Origin: Candidatus Aerophobota bacterium
GTDB lineage: Bacteria; Aerophobota; Aerophobia; Aerophobales; B3-G15
Assembly (NCBI GenBank): GCA_014859225.1
Contig: JACUUP010000067.1
Coordinates: forward strand, 1 to 8,074
Length of the DNA: 8,074 bases
Direction of reading: 5' to 3'
Positions 972 through 8,074 of this stretch are shown one piece after another. The notes under the pieces are model-generated. The model made no database searches. It was not told the DNA's origin and saw only the letters and a program-made list of their open reading frames with translations. Numbering within the stretch: the stretch's first letter is position 1; each line of letters starts with the position of its first letter. A program made the position numbers and the translations under genes.

Positions 972-1449
972 ATAAAAGTTCAATTTTTTATTGAAAGTAA
1001 GGAAGATATTTTATAGCTTCTCTGGTTGCACAAACTAGATCATTCTCTTGTAATCGTCTGACTTTCCATATTATGTCCCATAATTTCCGTAAATTCAAAG
1101 CTTTTTGACAAAATAAGATTATCTGAAAAAATACAGAGGTGGGTGAAAATTCAATAGCGAAGACGTTTCAATTTTGCGTGGCGATCAACACGACGATTAC
1201 GGAAAGAAGAGTGAGATGAGATCAATCAAAAGCTTCAAAGTCTTACCAATTATAGGCCAGAGCTAATACATCATAAAAATTGTATAAGTCAGAAGATTTG
1301 TTATGGTTAAGTAAATTGAGGAGGAAATTGTCTTGCTTGAGAAAAAAATGCAGGTAATGGATGAGAATTGCAAAGCAAAAACCAACCCTTTAGCATGGAG
1401 GATACAAAGAAGGTATTAATTAAGAAAGAAAAATCTGTTACTATTTTCC

Positions 1450-1478
1450 TTGACTTTCTGCGCTTTTCTCTGCATAAT
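1450..1478 (+). promoter_or_regulatory. Sigma70-like promoter of the BREX-like operon
   Basis: The -35 box TTGACT (1450-1455) and -10 box CATAAT (1473-1478) are separated by 17 bp. Transcription would begin near 1484-1486, leaving a leader of only about 14 nt made almost wholly of the ribosome binding site ATGGAGG (1486-1492). The downstream genes overlap or nearly abut, so this one promoter could drive everything from 1499 to the right edge. No second promoter was seen between the genes. Confidence 0.55.
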
Positions 1479-1498
1479 CTAAAGTATGGAGGCAAAGA

Positions 1499-3928
1499 AT
1501 GATTCTTATCAAAGACATCATCAAGCCCAGGCGAGAAATTTTAGAGGGGAAATTCCAGGGAGTAATCCAGTCCCACAAAGTAGACAGCAAGGAAAAGCGT
1601 CTTGAGAGCAATAGCCAGGATTTACTGAGCGTAACTTATGTATCATCGGCACTGAAAAGGGTACTAGAAAGGGTCAATGAAAAACTTACCGGAGCATCCA
1701 ATCAGGGTGCCATTTTACTGATAGGACCCTACGGAGCAGGAAAAACCCACGGTCTTATAACGTTATACCACCTTCTGAAGGAACCGAAGATTGCTAAAAA
1801 CTGGTTACGAAATTGGAAGATTGATATTGCCTTGCCCTCTTCTCCTAAAACCTGCATTATTTCTACCCGCAGATACGACGTAGATTTTCTCTGGGAGCCA
1901 ATCTTTTCCAAACTCAGCAGAAAAGATATACTTCCGAAAATCAAACGCTTTCCTACCATAGACCAGATTGAGGAAATTGTCGGGGATGAAACCTGTGCCA
2001 TTTTTATTGACGAAATTGAGAACTGGTACGGATCCTTTGATGCTGAAAAACAAGCAGACCTCATAGAGCGAAACGAAACTTTTTTTGAGCATCTTTTTGA
2101 GGTTGCCAATGACCCGAACAGAAAGCTTCTTGTCTTTTTGACTTTTCTGGAAGAAAAAGAAGGTTTGAAAAAAGTCTTTAACCGCACCAAACCAGTAAGG
2201 ATTGATGTAAGCGTTACCGAAGACAGGGAAAAGATTGTTTTGCATCGTCTCTTTGAAGACGCTGATAAAAAAGATTTAGAGAAAATAGAAGAGGTTGTGC
2301 AGGGCTACATGGAAAAATATACTGAGCCTATACACATTGAAAATCCTTATAACTATAAACAAAGGATGACCGAGACGTACCCCTTCCATCCCTTACTTCT
2401 TGAGACTTTGACTCAGGTTTATGAGGCTGCTACTGAAAGACAGGATATACGGGGAATGATGAATGTTCTGGCTGATATGATAAAGGACAACTACGACAAA
2501 AAAGACCTCCTTCTCATCTCTCACCTGGATGAAAATGCCTTTCGGGGCATAGACCTTCGGCTGGTAGAAAAATATAACTACGACCTCAAAAGGGTGAGCG
2601 AGCTTGCATACGGGGCTGACATATTAAAGTCTATTCTGGTATTCACTCTTAACGACAAAACCATAGGTGCAACTGAATCTGATGTTCTGCTCTCGGTTTT
2701 TAGCCCCAACCAGGGACAGGCACTGAACGCACTTATGATGGATTTAGAGAACATATACGGTAAACCACACTATCTCCATAAAGAAGGAGACCTGTATCTT
2801 TTCAGGCACGACTTGAATATCTTTGCTCTAATGGAGAAGGAGAAGAAAAACATCACCAATGAGGTTATCAAAAACAAAATCGCCGAGATTACCAAAAGGG
2901 ATGTTTTTGAGAACAGGGTCCTCATCTACGGATTTGAAAGCATTCCCGATGATAGCAAGATTAAAATGATTCTTATCCTGGAATCATGGGGGGAAAACGA
3001 TTCTCTTAAAGATAACCTAACTACATTTTACCGGGGAAAAAGCTGGCAGAATACCTACATCATCATCCTGCCGAGTACTGACGGAGTTCTTTCATCATAC
3101 GAGATCACAGAAAAAACAAGAAGAATTCTGGCAGCGGAGAATTTACTGGGACAGGTTGAGGATAAAGAAAGAAAAATCCAGAAATTAGTTGCTGAGGAAA
3201 GAGGGCAAATAGTAGATAAAATAAAGGCATCCTATGGACGAATCGTAAAATGGGTGGCAAGGGAAAAGGAGTTACTTGTTCCACGGCTCATTAATGTGAG
3301 CTGTGATATAAGTGCCATACGAGAAAAAGCAGGAAGCGACCCTTCCCTGGTTGCTGACTACATACTTCAGGAAATAAAAGAAGAAGCGCAAGGAGTGAGG
3401 CTTGAGATTCTCATAAATGATTTCAAGAAACTGAGGAAATTTCCGTTCATTTTAGATGATGAAGCTATTTTCAGTGCCATACGCAACCTTCACAGAGATA
3501 AAAGACTGGTAATCCAGGGTGACCGGGGAAAATGGTACATAACTGAGATACCGAAGAGTTTGGAATTTGGCTTTGTTATCTTTGACCCTAAGTATGCGCC
3601 CCCGGAGGAAACAATTGAGAAAGAGGGAGATAAAATTCGTGAGGGAGAAGAAATACCAGAGGAAAAAACTGACCAGGAAGTAAAGCCCCCCGAAGTTGAA
3701 AGAAGGGAAAAGAAGCAGCTTTCTTTGCGAGGAAATTCGCCTCGTGTCATACTTAGCAACATTGAAGCACGAACCCAGAGTAAAGACCTGTTCAGCGGGA
3801 TAGATATAAAATACCAGTTTGCGCGTGAGCTTTCCAAGCAAGAAATTATGAAATTCATTAAACAGCTTCCTCAAGAAGAAGGAGAAATTGAGGGAGAAGT
3901 TGAGCTCTGGAGAGAACATGAAGATTGA
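1499..3928 (+). CDS. DUF499-type (BrxC/PglY-like) AAA+ ATPase of a BREX-like system
   Basis: The 809-residue protein is probably the cytoplasmic ATP-driven component of the defence complex. Residues 75-83 (IGPYGAGKT) are Walker A, with K82 and T83 binding the phosphates. Residues 167-173 (AIFIDEI) are Walker B, with D171 and catalytic E172. The strand LLVFLTF (210-216) sits where AAA+ sensor 1 is expected. TETYPFHPLL (291-300) and the strand after SWQNTY (515-520) resemble the YPFHP and RNT-type motifs of DUF499/COG1483 and BrxC proteins. Residues about 640-685 look like a winged-helix module ending in GDRGKWYI, followed by a strongly charged Glu/Lys/Pro linker (about 700-740) and a short C-terminal domain. 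BrxC/PglY proteins are usually near 1,200 residues, so this is a short form. The ATG at 1499 follows ATGGAGG by 6 nt. The end overlaps the PglZ gene by 11 bp. The ATPase assignment is firm; the BREX role is inferred from the neighbours. Confidence 0.9.
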   Translation: MILIKDIIKPRREILEGKFQGVIQSHKVDSKEKRLESNSQDLLSVTYVSSALKRVLERVNEKLTGASNQGAILLIGPYGAGKTHGLITLYHLLKEPKIAKNWLRNWKIDIALPSSPKTCIISTRRYDVDFLWEPIFSKLSRKDILPKIKRFPTIDQIEEIVGDETCAIFIDEIENWYGSFDAEKQADLIERNETFFEHLFEVANDPNRKLLVFLTFLEEKEGLKKVFNRTKPVRIDVSVTEDREKIVLHRLFEDADKKDLEKIEEVVQGYMEKYTEPIHIENPYNYKQRMTETYPFHPLLLETLTQVYEAATERQDIRGMMNVLADMIKDNYDKKDLLLISHLDENAFRGIDLRLVEKYNYDLKRVSELAYGADILKSILVFTLNDKTIGATESDVLLSVFSPNQGQALNALMMDLENIYGKPHYLHKEGDLYLFRHDLNIFALMEKEKKNITNEVIKNKIAEITKRDVFENRVLIYGFESIPDDSKIKMILILESWGENDSLKDNLTTFYRGKSWQNTYIIILPSTDGVLSSYEITEKTRRILAAENLLGQVEDKERKIQKLVAEERGQIVDKIKASYGRIVKWVAREKELLVPRLINVSCDISAIREKAGSDPSLVADYILQEIKEEAQGVRLEILINDFKKLRKFPFILDDEAIFSAIRNLHRDKRLVIQGDRGKWYITEIPKSLEFGFVIFDPKYAPPEETIEKEGDKIREGEEIPEEKTDQEVKPPEVERREKKQLSLRGNSPRVILSNIEARTQSKDLFSGIDIKYQFARELSKQEIMKFIKQLPQEEGEIEGEVELWREHED
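3908..3914 (+). promoter_or_regulatory. Ribosome binding site that fixes the pglZ start
   Basis: GGAG (3909-3912) lies inside the end of the ATPase gene, 5 nt before the ATG at 3918. A longer reading starts at TTG 3888, but its only purine run ends 3 nt before the codon and TTG is rarer, so ATG 3918 is preferred. The arrangement suggests translational coupling to the ATPase gene. Confidence 0.6.
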
Positions 3929-4856
3929 AAATACTTTCATAAAATCAGTTCTCAGGGAAGCTAATCCGATTCCCCATATCTGGCAACACCTTTGTGACAT
4001 CTGGCATAAGCATGTAACCGAAGATTTGAAAGATTACTACTACCACGGCGAGGAAGAGGCTTTTTTATTTGAGGATTTTCTGCTCAAAGCCTACGATGAA
4101 TTTTTCTCAAAAGAGCTTCCCCGCGCTTGCCTGAACACACCCTCACCTTTTCAGAGCGCTTCTCATGATTCCTGTTTTGTAGTGATGGACGGGATGAGCA
4201 TCCGGGAAGGCATTCTTATTTGCGAGGCTCTAAAAAAAGAAGGATTTACACCCAGAATGCGTTGTTCATTTTCCGCCATTCCCTCGGATACTCAAAGTTT
4301 CCGGGAAAAGATGAAATCCGATGTAGCAAACTCAAGCCTGCCTGCCGCATCTTTCACAACCAGGATAGGTAAGTTTGCAGAAATCAATAACCCCAAAAAG
4401 ATTATGATTTCAGGAAAAGAAAAGTGCATCTGGTCTCATTTTCCTGATGTAATGCTGGATAAGATACAGGTAGGCCACACGGTAATTTCCGACCTTGAGA
4501 ATATGTACAGGACCTCAGAACAAATTGTCTTTGAGCTCGTGAGAAAAGCTCATGCAAAGAAAATTATCATCTTATCTGACCATGGTTATATTCGTTTTGA
4601 ATCCGGCTTTTCTTTTTCCCTGCCTGAGGCAAGCAGGAAAAAGTTACGAGAAACCTTCGCCAGTTCTCGCTTCACTACTATGAATACAACTGACCTCTCA
4701 GAGCTTGTAGGTGATGGCTACATAACCGAGTTTTCAGGCTACTACCTTGTGAAATCTCGCTACGTCTGGCCAGTGCCGGGCAAATATAGCATTTACCTTC
4801 ACGGAGGTATAAGCCTTATGGAGTGTCTCACTCCATTAATTGAGGTGGAGAAATGA
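3918..4856 (+). CDS. pglZ: Minimal PglZ-domain protein (alkaline phosphatase fold)
   Basis: The 312-residue protein shows the marks of the PglZ family, metal-binding members of the alkaline phosphatase superfamily that are core components of BREX and Pgl phage resistance. FVVMDGMSIREG (87-98) holds the first metal-binding Asp (D91) and a possible Ser nucleophile (S94). LSDHGY (219-224) gives D221 and H222. HGGISLMECLTPLIEV (295-310) is the C-terminal His-Gly-Gly motif typical of PglZ and related phosphomutases. An alpha-helical segment of about 85 residues precedes the catalytic part. BREX PglZ proteins are commonly around 800 residues or more, so this one is little more than the catalytic core, yet all the visible motifs are intact and it does not look broken. 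It overlaps the ATPase gene by 11 bp and the methyltransferase gene by ATGA (4853-4856), so the three proteins are probably made in balanced amounts. The exact enzymatic activity of PglZ proteins in defence is not settled. Confidence 0.85.
   Translation: MKIENTFIKSVLREANPIPHIWQHLCDIWHKHVTEDLKDYYYHGEEEAFLFEDFLLKAYDEFFSKELPRACLNTPSPFQSASHDSCFVVMDGMSIREGILICEALKKEGFTPRMRCSFSAIPSDTQSFREKMKSDVANSSLPAASFTTRIGKFAEINNPKKIMISGKEKCIWSHFPDVMLDKIQVGHTVISDLENMYRTSEQIVFELVRKAHAKKIIILSDHGYIRFESGFSFSLPEASRKKLRETFASSRFTTMNTTDLSELVGDGYITEFSGYYLVKSRYVWPVPGKYSIYLHGGISLMECLTPLIEVEK
4842..4850 (+). promoter_or_regulatory. Ribosome binding site for the methyltransferase gene
   Basis: GAGGTGGAG lies at the very end of the pglZ coding sequence, 2 nt before the ATG at 4853, which overlaps the pglZ stop as ATGA. 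This supports the start and termination-reinitiation coupling. Confidence 0.6.
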
Positions 4857-7615
4857 GGCAAAAGCCCATTGAGATTGATTTTCCCATTGAGCAGGTAAAT
4901 GAGATCGCCGAAAAGGAAGCTCATGCCAAGGAAAAATACCGTCCCATCTATTTTATCCATAAATGGTGGGCAAGAAGACTGGGAAGTGTCTTTAGAACTA
5001 TTGTGCTTTACAGTCTCCTGGATGAAAACGCGAAAGTCCTTGAAGATAGTGGTTCATGGCGTCCGCTGACAACTGAAGAGCTGGAAAACCCCTGGCTTCT
5101 TTACTTAAAGGATGTAGACCTTGGTGGGAAGATAGTGCTTGACCCCATGATGGGAGGCGGCACTACCGTTATTGAAGCATTGAGACTTGGTTGCAAAGTC
5201 GTTGCCCAGGATTTAAACCCGGTTGCCTGGTTTCTGGTGAAAAAGATGGTTGAGCCGGTAGATATTGATGCATTGAAAAAAGCTTTCGGCACATTGGAGG
5301 ATGAAGTTGCAGATGAGATAAAGAAATATTATAGAAGCGTATGTCCTCACTGCTTGAAAAAGTTCTCTCAGAGTGAAAGGAAAAATCCAGAGGCTATGAT
5401 TAAACAACTCGCAAACAAACTGCACGTACAAAAGCCGCATACTCTTTATGAGGAGTATAATTTCCAGGATGACAAAAGTTATGAACACAGGACGAACCAG
5501 AAGCAACTACCGCAAAGAAAGAACATATTCGCCGATGCAATGTATTACTTCTGGATCAAGGAAGTTTCCTGCCTGAATTGTGATGCAAAAGTTCCCCTTT
5601 TCAGAGGATACATGCTTGCCCAGAAAAGAGATGGCAGAGGCTATCACATCATCTGTCCTGATTGCGGCAATCTCTTTGAGGTGGAAGATTACAAAAAAGA
5701 TACTCTCTGCCCGAGGTGCGAAAAGAAATTCAACCCTGACAGAAATGGAAATGTGGACAGACAGTATTACATATGCCCTGAATGTGGACAGAAAAGCAAA
5801 ATTGTTGAGACAATCCAAAGAAGAGGAAAACCAGCAGAAAGGCTCTACGCAGTTGAGTATTACTGCCCTTCCTGCAGCCAGAAAGACTACAAACAGGCAG
5901 ATGAGTTTGATATAGCACTCTTTGAGAAGGCAAAAGATGAGTACAAAAATGTAGAGGCTGAATGGGTAGGGGAATTTATACCGGATACATCGATTCCAAA
6001 TGGAGAATCTTTTCAAAGTCTTTTAAACCATGGTTTTAAATATTGGAAAGATATGTTCAATGAGAGACAGATTTTAAGTTTGGGAAAATTGTTAAAAACT
6101 ATATTAGAAAGAGAAATAAGGGATATAAATGAGTTCTTTGTAATTGCTTTTTCGGACACTTTAGAATTTAATAATCTTTGTTGTGATTACCTTCAGACAA
6201 GGAACCATCTTGGTAAATTATTCACAATGCATGCTTTCAGAACACCGCATAATCCCGTAGAAAACAATGTTTGGGGTTCAAATGGTGGTGGAAGAGGAGT
6301 TTTTAAAAATGAAATTGAAAAAATAATTCGCGGTAAATACTATAACAATTTTCCTTTTGAAAAATACATAAACTCCGGTCGAACATTAGAAAAGCCATCA
6401 AAAATCAAAATTCAGGGAAAAATCGGCGATATATGTAACGGCAATGGAAATATTCAACTTGCCTGTGGTGATTCTTCCTATCTTCCCATCCCCGATAGCT
6501 CTATTGATGCCATCATTACAGACCCCCCTTATTACGGTAATGTTATGTATTCTGAACTTTCAGAGTTCTACTACTCGTGGCTTCGGCTGGCACTCAAAAA
6601 CAAATACGAATACTACCAGAGTGAACACGTGCCCAATACAGCAGAGGTAATTGTCAATAAGGCTCAGGAAAAAGATGAAAAAGACTTCATTGATGGACTG
6701 ACGGCTGTATTCAGGGAAGCGAGTAAAAAACTCAAAAAAGACGGCATAATGACCTTCACCTTCCACCACCAGGAAGAAAAAGCCTGGGGAGCGGTTTTGC
6801 AATCAGTTTTAACTGCGGGGTTTTATATCGCCTCAATTTATCCGGTGCAATCAGAAAAAAGTTCGAGTCCCCACATCTTCCAGAAAGCCAATGTGCGCTA
6901 CGACATGGTGGTTGTCTGTCGCAAAAGAGAAGTTGCACCAGAGAAAAAACACTGGTCTACACTGGAGGATGAGATTTACTTCAAGGTTGAGGCTGAACTT
7001 GGAAGACTGGAAAAGCATAAAAAGAACCTTTCCTCAGAAGATGTGTTTGTGGTAAGTATCGGCAAGTGCCTTGAAGTTTACTCAAAACACTATCCAGAAG
7101 TTTACCGGGGCGAAAAAAAAGTCTCCATTGATGAGGCATTATCGTCCATCAGGGAGATTGTGGATTCACAACTGATGCATACCAGATTCAACCAGGTCGC
7201 CTCGGAAACAGATATCCTGACCGCAATTTATTTATTTTATCTTGCAGGTAAAACGAGTATGTCCTATGAGTCCCTGAACAAAGCCTTAAAGATGAGAAGT
7301 CTTGGAGTGAAAGAGGTGGTAGATTCAGGGCTCGTGGAAAGAGAAGGAAGCCAGCTCCTTGTTTTAACCCCATCAGAGCGGGAAAAAATATTAGAATCCA
7401 GGCGCAAAGAGAACCTCTCTGCAATTGATAGGGTGCATTATCTTTTTGTGCTCTTTACAAAGGACAAATTCTTCGCCTTTGAAAAACAGCTTCCCGAGAG
7501 TGAAAAAAACTTGTGGAAAAATGAGAAGGTGTTCAAGGCGCTTGAAATGGTGAGTGAAATTGAAAATGATAAAACCTATGGCGACATAATGAAGTTAGTA
7601 AAGATGAGGTGGTAG
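4853..7615 (+). CDS. DUF1156 (COG1743, PglXI-type) adenine-specific DNA methyltransferase with zinc ribbons
   Basis: The 920-residue protein probably transfers a methyl group from S-adenosylmethionine to adenine N6 in host DNA, marking it as self. The N-terminus, with IHKWWARRLGSVFRTI (35-50), is the hallmark of DUF1156. Motif I for SAM binding is LDPMMGGGTT (96-105), followed by QDLNPVAW (119-126). The catalytic motif IV is DPPY (557-560), followed by a tail (FHHQ 637-640, AGFYIASIYPVQSE 655-668) usual in these enzymes. The order motif I, long insert, motif IV is alpha-like. The insert carries six CXXC pairs (164, 240, 268, 286, 308 and 338 as first Cys), enough for three zinc ribbons. The C-terminal 200 residues hold no motif I recognise. 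Residues about 383-522 are encoded by clearly more AT-rich DNA. No restriction nuclease is fused or adjacent, which fits BREX rather than ordinary restriction-modification. Recognition sequence unknown. Confidence 0.94.
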   Translation: MRQKPIEIDFPIEQVNEIAEKEAHAKEKYRPIYFIHKWWARRLGSVFRTIVLYSLLDENAKVLEDSGSWRPLTTEELENPWLLYLKDVDLGGKIVLDPMMGGGTTVIEALRLGCKVVAQDLNPVAWFLVKKMVEPVDIDALKKAFGTLEDEVADEIKKYYRSVCPHCLKKFSQSERKNPEAMIKQLANKLHVQKPHTLYEEYNFQDDKSYEHRTNQKQLPQRKNIFADAMYYFWIKEVSCLNCDAKVPLFRGYMLAQKRDGRGYHIICPDCGNLFEVEDYKKDTLCPRCEKKFNPDRNGNVDRQYYICPECGQKSKIVETIQRRGKPAERLYAVEYYCPSCSQKDYKQADEFDIALFEKAKDEYKNVEAEWVGEFIPDTSIPNGESFQSLLNHGFKYWKDMFNERQILSLGKLLKTILEREIRDINEFFVIAFSDTLEFNNLCCDYLQTRNHLGKLFTMHAFRTPHNPVENNVWGSNGGGRGVFKNEIEKIIRGKYYNNFPFEKYINSGRTLEKPSKIKIQGKIGDICNGNGNIQLACGDSSYLPIPDSSIDAIITDPPYYGNVMYSELSEFYYSWLRLALKNKYEYYQSEHVPNTAEVIVNKAQEKDEKDFIDGLTAVFREASKKLKKDGIMTFTFHHQEEKAWGAVLQSVLTAGFYIASIYPVQSEKSSSPHIFQKANVRYDMVVVCRKREVAPEKKHWSTLEDEIYFKVEAELGRLEKHKKNLSSEDVFVVSIGKCLEVYSKHYPEVYRGEKKVSIDEALSSIREIVDSQLMHTRFNQVASETDILTAIYLFYLAGKTSMSYESLNKALKMRSLGVKEVVDSGLVEREGSQLLVLTPSEREKILESRRKENLSAIDRVHYLFVLFTKDKFFAFEKQLPESEKNLWKNEKVFKALEMVSEIENDKTYGDIMKLVKMRW
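7606..7612 (+). promoter_or_regulatory. Ribosome binding site that fixes the nucleotidyltransferase start
   Basis: GAGGTGG covers the last codons of the methyltransferase gene and lies 5 nt before the ATG at 7618. An in-frame GTG at 7609 falls inside this site and has no binding site of its own at proper distance, so ATG 7618 is chosen. Confidence 0.6.
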
Positions 7616-7617
7616 GG

Positions 7618-7923
7618 ATGGATAAAGAGGATAGAAAAAAGCTCTTGCTTGAGTTAGCTCATGAATGTGCAAGGGTATTGAAGGAAAAATACAAGGTAAA
7701 GAGGGTTTTTCTCATAGGTTCTCTTGTTTATGGAATTGTTCACGAAAGATCCGATATTGACCTGGTGGTTGAAGGGTTAGCACCTGAGCTATATATTAAG
7801 GCATTGGTGGATATCAGCGATACTCTTCAATGGAAAGTAGAAGTTAATTTAATCCCTTTTGAAGATGCTTTCGAAAGTTTAAAGGAAAAAACCCTAAAAA
7901 AGGGAAAACTAATTTATGGATAA
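7618..7923 (+). CDS. Minimal nucleotidyltransferase (MNT), likely antitoxin of an MNT-HEPN pair
   Basis: The 101-residue protein is a stand-alone DNA polymerase beta-type nucleotidyltransferase. G34-S35 followed after exactly ten residues by D46-I-D48 makes the GSX10DXD catalytic motif that binds the metal and nucleotide. E75 in KVEVNLI is a likely third carboxylate, where Asp is more usual. Short MNT proteins encoded just before a HEPN protein act as antitoxins; in the studied MntA-HepT pair the MNT adds AMP units to the HEPN toxin and silences it. The same role here is inferred. The gene begins 2 nt after the methyltransferase stop, so it probably belongs to the same transcript, and its end overlaps the next gene by 8 bp. 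Its DNA is more AT-rich (roughly 30-35% G+C) than the three genes before it, suggesting a separately acquired module. Confidence 0.9.
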   Translation: MDKEDRKKLLLELAHECARVLKEKYKVKRVFLIGSLVYGIVHERSDIDLVVEGLAPELYIKALVDISDTLQWKVEVNLIPFEDAFESLKEKTLKKGKLIYG

Positions 7924-8074
7924 GAAAGAATTAATTGATGAAATAAAGGAAGAGATTAAAAATCTTGAAAGATTAGAGAAAGAAACAAAAAGTCTTCTAT
8001 CCAACCTGGGAGAAGAGCTGACTTTCATGGAGATAAGGACTTCAGCGAGTATTTTACATGATTTTTACTCAGGT
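7916..8074 (+). CDS. HEPN/HepT-like protein, N-terminal part (runs off the right edge)
   Basis: From the ATG at 7916, 53 codons are open to the window edge. The sequence begins with a charged helix rich in Lys and Glu (residues 1-26) and continues to EIRTSASILHDFYSG (39-53), a helix like that near the N-terminus of HepT-like ribonuclease toxins paired with MNT proteins. The catalytic RX4-6H motif of such toxins usually lies in the C-terminal half, which is not present here; R41 and H48 happen to fit the spacing but I do not take them as the active site. The start overlaps the MNT gene by 8 bp, and a weak AAGGG lies 12 nt upstream, so translation probably depends on the preceding gene. The DNA is very AT-rich (about 22% G+C at 7921-7980). 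The call rests on the partial motif plus its position behind the MNT gene. Confidence 0.72.
   Translation, partial: MDKKELIDEIKEEIKNLERLEKETKSLLSNLGEELTFMEIRTSASILHDFYSG

Follow-up and report, generated by a model that had tools for sequence, protein, structure and literature searches.

Do overlapping genes for a short ATPase, a small PglZ protein and a DUF1156 methyltransferase form a compact three-gene BREX-like system, or are they the left half of something larger? The initial annotation of this DNA put forward the first reading and named the second as an alternative. The window, the whole stretch of 8,074 nucleotides analysed here, is an entire contig (C172) from end to end, and this contig breaks off inside the operon, which is why the three-gene reading is wrong. 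We find that the window is the 5′ half of a genuine operon of a kind already described in 2026, and that an XPB-type helicase sets it apart from the described form. Sequence comparison makes it probable that this operon is a Type-3-BR-like DNA modification and phage-exclusion system. Systems of this class, centred on DUF499 proteins, were described by Rakesh & Krishnan (NAR 2026; PMC12839542), and the closest named system is their Type-3 BREX-Related (BR) system. Type-3 BR loci combine a DUF499 ATPase, expected to carry an RRM/ferredoxin-like domain at its C-terminus, a standalone active PglZ, a DUF1156 methyltransferase, an iSTAND component (in 82% of loci) and a nuclease-less BrxHII-type Snf2 helicase.

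Limits of the operon and the contig joint

The window carries the following operon features.

1450..1478, plus strand: operon promoter, TTGACT-17 nt-CATAAT, common to four relatives from different phyla
1499..3928, plus strand: DUF499-type (BrxC/HmaC-like) AAA+ ATPase, 809 aa, assigned from profiles and motifs
3918..4856, plus strand: standalone PglZ, a predicted phosphodiesterase of the alkaline phosphatase superfamily, 312 aa, assigned from profile, fold model and conserved residues
4853..7615, plus strand: predicted DUF1156 N6-adenine DNA methyltransferase, 920 aa, assigned from profiles and motifs
7609..7923, plus strand: MNT-type nucleotidyltransferase (MntA-antitoxin-like), accessory cargo; the start is either GTG 7609 or ATG 7618
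7916..8074, plus strand: 5′ part of a HepT-like_2 gene cut by the contig end; the rest lies on contig C236 (L086:19622-19999, minus strand)

The genes for the ATPase, PglZ and methyltransferase follow one another in overlapping frames, all three within the limits given by the initial annotation. The first two overlap by 11 bp (3918-3928) and the last two by ATGA (4853-4856). The gene list had ended at 7615 and so left out the MNT gene, whose start overlaps the methyltransferase stop codon and which is kept in the same position in L085, and the HepT-like gene that follows it. To the left, the spacer was said to hold no further component; this is true of the window, where the HTH_17 gene of relatives is missing and the conserved promoter is present. 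A radical SAM protein gene on the minus strand (3-803), cut at the left contig end, shows no evident relation to the operon.

C172 ends in 55 bases identical to the last 55 bases of C236 on the reverse strand, and a genome-wide search found this overlap to be unique. The HepT-like reading frame from 7916 reads across the joint, and past it C236 completes HepT and continues with p130, a protein of 130 aa, and a helicase of 526 aa. An end overlap of this length with a reading frame across it is the usual sign of a single path split by the assembler. The predicted course of the operon beyond base 8074 rests on this overlap within one metagenome-assembled genome (MAG) and on relatives. In G290 a single 236-kb contig spans the whole gene order (L048, L083), in G213 PglZ, methyltransferase, p130 and helicase share one 7.6-kb contig (L130), and in G293 two contigs have an exact 127-bp end overlap inside PglZ. 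The alternative of a left half is thus borne out, with MNT, HepT, p130 and helicase continuing to the right, whereas the compact three-gene system falls, as p130 and helicase follow both on the joined contig and on the single contig of G290. A 29-bp match of the window to contig C11 falls within the P-loop region and is treated as coincidence. The window PglZ used as a query found no match among the contigs of the genome, and an Rfam search returned nothing.

Proteins encoded by the operon

The ATPase has a Walker A motif, GPYGAGKT, at residue 76 and a Walker B motif, IFIDEI, at residue 168. It matches DUF499_antiphage (E 1.4e-22, under the equivalog cut-off), PADLOC HmaC (1.5e-24) and DUF499 (5.9e-15), and its haloarchaeal orthologues carry a DUF499 annotation. 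The methyltransferase matches DUF1156 (PF06634) with 27.3 bits against a cut-off of 24, and N6_N4_Mtase at 7.6e-13. Its motif I lies at residue 97 and DPPY at residue 557, with six CxxC motifs between them. Together with the PglZ match, these assignments uphold the kinship to BREX that had been proposed. Because scores lie well under the curated equivalog cut-offs, the window proteins are relatives rather than members of the modelled subfamilies.

The Pfam PglZ match to the 312-aa protein falls just below threshold (4.3e-5, 24 bits against a cut-off of 25). An AlphaFold model built from 11 sequences (pLDDT 73.7) aligns over residues 1-312 with the PglZ domain of PorX (Z 12.1, rmsd 4.5, 248 aligned) and with the Acinetobacter BREX PglZ (Z 9.6). 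Residues D91, S94, D177, D221, H222 and H295 are kept in nearly all homologues, and by comparison with the alkaline phosphatase superfamily we read them as the probable active site. One Spirochaete PglZ (L044:10936-11838) carries N at the position of the conserved D91 and is possibly inactive, or the difference is a sequencing error. The window protein is standalone: it has no fusions and lacks the N-terminal domains of BREX PglZ. The small sizes reported for PglZ and the ATPase are correct, but they are not foreign to known systems, as Type-3 BR is defined by standalone PglZ and DUF499 ATPases. Against relatives, dN/dS is about 0.09 for the ATPase and 0.07-0.16 for PglZ, values that are rough because dS is near or above 1 and that indicate purifying selection. 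The locus is real, conserved and selected. PDB sequence searches with the window PglZ and ATPase alone gave no match. No relative of the window PglZ was found in phage records, nor were the ATPase, p130 or helicase found in viral contigs, where a PglZ alignment search matched canonical Snf2-type loci only.

The helicase, 526-531 aa across the lineage, is XPB-type and has no nuclease domain. Its best match among solved structures is archaeal XPBII (E 2.7e-30), and in PADLOC it matches PbeA (4e-78) over the helicase portion, the nuclease portion being missing. Against the Snf2 helicase from a canonical locus, blastp gave nothing better than E 0.1 and profiles gave a weak match confined to the motor core. 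The preceding protein, p130, matches nothing in Pfam or PADLOC and occupies the slot of an iSTAND-like protein of ~165 aa in canonical loci. Searching with a p130 profile picks up a bridge protein (E 2.2e-7), the small protein encoded at L136, a Snf2-type locus. The model of this bridge protein is poor (pLDDT 50.6). Profile–profile comparison (hhalign) of p130 with the iSTAND set gives a weak match (E 0.0014, 18% probability). In a second alignment set the probability ranges from 3 to 28% with the placement of the bridge protein, compared to 0.1-0.3% for six unrelated small proteins. Homology of p130 to iSTAND is probable, though not shown. Helicase and p130 diverge in parallel between relatives (identity 79/79 and 57/54%), as would be seen in co-inheritance.

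Lineage, defence cargo and relics

For ATPase and methyltransferase alike, the trees unite the window's lineage in one clade (100/100) and place it beside haloarchaeal plasmid loci (93/94 and 94/93, respectively). Loci bearing Snf2 helicases are apart (98/98 in the ATPase tree, 100/99 in the PglZ tree), and in the PglZ tree the window's lineage and the haloarchaea fall together (100/99), with no firm order inside this group. One row of the methyltransferase tree (G262) is mistranslated and has a very long branch; only other branches were relied on. On these sequences the three trees agree on the split from the Snf2-bearing loci. We claim the split and not its age, since the trees are midpoint-rooted and contain some long branches.

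Comparison of gene neighbourhoods, which had been proposed as a check, found the order conserved across phyla. An ATPase scan of 84,980 species gave at least seven close loci, a lower bound because they were found via short conserved peptides. Among 386 genomes scanned, p130 was present in two, the window's own and G213. ATPase identity is 66-84% among L044-L047 and L050, from MAGs assigned to different phyla, which reflects either recent transfer or mis-binning; many of the loci come from MAG contigs, and mis-binning may account for part of the spread across phyla.

An XPB-type helicase lies right after p130 or within ~1.3 kb of it in L083, L084, L085, L086, L087 and L130, and these are all the loci of the window's own lineage with enough sequence on that side. 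A search for the SNF2 family gave no match at all in G292 and weak matches only in G290, so no Snf2 partner was identified at another site in these genomes. Seven haloarchaeal loci from complete plasmid records have the order ATPase-PglZ-methyltransferase-p130 with no adjacent same-strand helicase. In four haloarchaeal plasmid loci (L090-L093) a gene for a D12-class adenine methylase comes after p130, and several haloarchaeal loci have McrBC-like or PD-(D/E)XK/UvrD gene pairs nearby. The seven plasmid loci are what favours a truly minimal system that needs only ATPase, PglZ and methyltransferase (and p130), with the helicase as an optional neighbour. We regard this as unlikely, given the constant presence of the helicase in the window's own lineage; a helicase acting in trans could serve the haloarchaeal loci, and UvrD/PD-(D/E)XK pairs lie near some of them. 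The helicase appears instead to be the variable part of a larger system: XPB-type here, BrxHII-like Snf2 in canonical loci and none adjacent in the haloarchaeal plasmids.

The space between core genes also holds other defence genes. Between PglZ and methyltransferase, L048 (L048:13304-20923, a Desulfofervidaceae MAG) has a TrlF/Ppl-like gene, a Schlafen AlbA_2 gene and a Gabija pair (GajA 5e-104, GajB 1e-154). In G292, an Actinomycetota MAG, type III-B CRISPR genes occupy this position on two contigs between which the gap is not closed: one carries MNT, HEPN and Cmr1 (L046:12417-14657), the other Cmr4, Cmr5 and Cmr3 ahead of the methyltransferase (L087:850-5792). The same interval contains an HD-domain protein and a DarG-like protein in L130 and MNT-HEPN in L011. 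On the canonical side, L012 and L013 have Schlafen genes there. Auxiliary nucleases inside BREX operons were already reported by Rakesh & Krishnan; type III CRISPR genes in such operons are not named in the covered portions of PMC12839542.

The promoter, TTGACT-17-CATAAT, is conserved in the window, L044, L045, L046 and L050. An HTH_17 gene follows it directly upstream of the ATPase in L045, L046 and L050, and in broken form in L044. In the window (1425-1498) this gene is missing, as it is from the rest of the genome, so that promoter and ribosome binding site nearly touch. Just after the helicase, C236 carries a relic (L086:17400-17660, minus strand) in which the promoter junction and start codon (56 bp, 93% identical to window 1443-1498) are fused to a PglZ tail (the last 40 bases, 90% identical to window 4818-4857), followed by intact MNT and HEPN genes. 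This relic is best read as a second operon copy from which the ATPase and PglZ were deleted. Two genomes with the same gene order have broken copies (L010/L050 and L011), frameshifted in G008 and reduced to fragments in G003, where an intact MNT-HEPN pair adjoins the broken PglZ and methyltransferase genes. A toxin–antitoxin pair that outlasts its decaying host operon would fit addiction. The broken copies and the collapsed second copy could also mean that the window locus itself is decaying or serves modification only, with a working methyltransferase and its defence lost. This is improbable, as the window genes are full length, keep all catalytic motifs and have dN/dS near 0.1.

Proposed function and relation to named systems

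In BREX, self is marked by methylation and replication is blocked by PglZ, according to work cited in PMC12839542, and we infer that both may hold in the window's lineage. The DUF1156 enzyme would methylate adenine at a fixed site of host DNA as the self mark, and the DUF499 ATPase and p130, a probable iSTAND-like sensor, would assemble on unmethylated incoming DNA. The XPB-type helicase, with no nuclease domain, could open the incoming DNA or translocate along it, and PglZ, as a metal-dependent phosphodiesterase, would nick DNA or hydrolyse nucleotides, whereupon replication would stop. MNT-HepT and MNT-HEPN pairs and other cargo may be toxin–antitoxin or back-up defences riding in the operon. 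The BR helicase is exchangeable while ATPase, PglZ, methyltransferase and small protein stay together, and natural variants with Snf2, with XPB or poor in helicases offer a test of its role. The inserted whole defence systems and the promoter/MNT-HEPN relic suggest how cargo rides on a host operon and outlives it.

Among named systems, PbeABCD (archaeal, phosphorothioation-linked) shares with the window's lineage the XPB-like SF2 helicase core of PbeA, and its authors report methyltransferases near many solitary pbeAC pairs; descent from a Pbe-type system that acquired a methyltransferase is nevertheless very improbable, since only the helicase part of PbeA matches and its HKD nuclease is missing, the ATPase is DUF499-like rather than a CxC ABC ATPase (no PbeC match), no DndE/PbeD-like protein occurs among the scanned neighbours, and a methylation enzyme stands where PbeABCD has Dnd genes. 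Hma (Type-1 BR) resembles the window in its methyltransferase (HmaB) and ATPase (HmaC) but has a Snf2 helicase (HmaA), usually nuclease-fused, and no PglZ, whereas the window has PglZ and an XPB-type helicase. Type-3 BREX has related methyltransferase and ATPase cores and a PglZ; its PglZ carries long extra domains and its locus includes BrxA, BrxF and BrxHII. PADLOC scans of the operon proteins tested gave no BrxA or BrxF match, and no BrxHII-like helicase occurs at the window-lineage locus.

Type-3 BR is closest. L096, L126, L128, L129, L133 and L136-L141 fit it, and in L096, L126 and L136-L141 the iSTAND-like protein and a Snf2 helicase of ~930 aa fill the p130 and helicase slots. The window's lineage shares the DUF499-type ATPase, the DUF1156 N6-methyltransferase, the standalone PglZ whose active site appears intact, a small protein at the iSTAND position, a nuclease-less helicase and the gene order of canonical loci. 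It differs in the shorter XPB-type helicase in place of the BrxHII-like Snf2 protein, in the shorter and only weakly iSTAND-like p130, and in the accessory defence genes between core genes. Among the papers searched, none joins PglZ with XPB. The claim of a distinct system survives for the helicase; with the downstream genes in view, most of the locus agrees with a named type. On balance we lean towards a branch of BR that is separate and so far undescribed, where BrxHII has given way to an XPB-type helicase (in haloarchaea, to no adjacent one) and the operon nests whole defence systems (Gabija, type III-B CRISPR, TrlF, MNT-HEPN) between PglZ, methyltransferase and p130.
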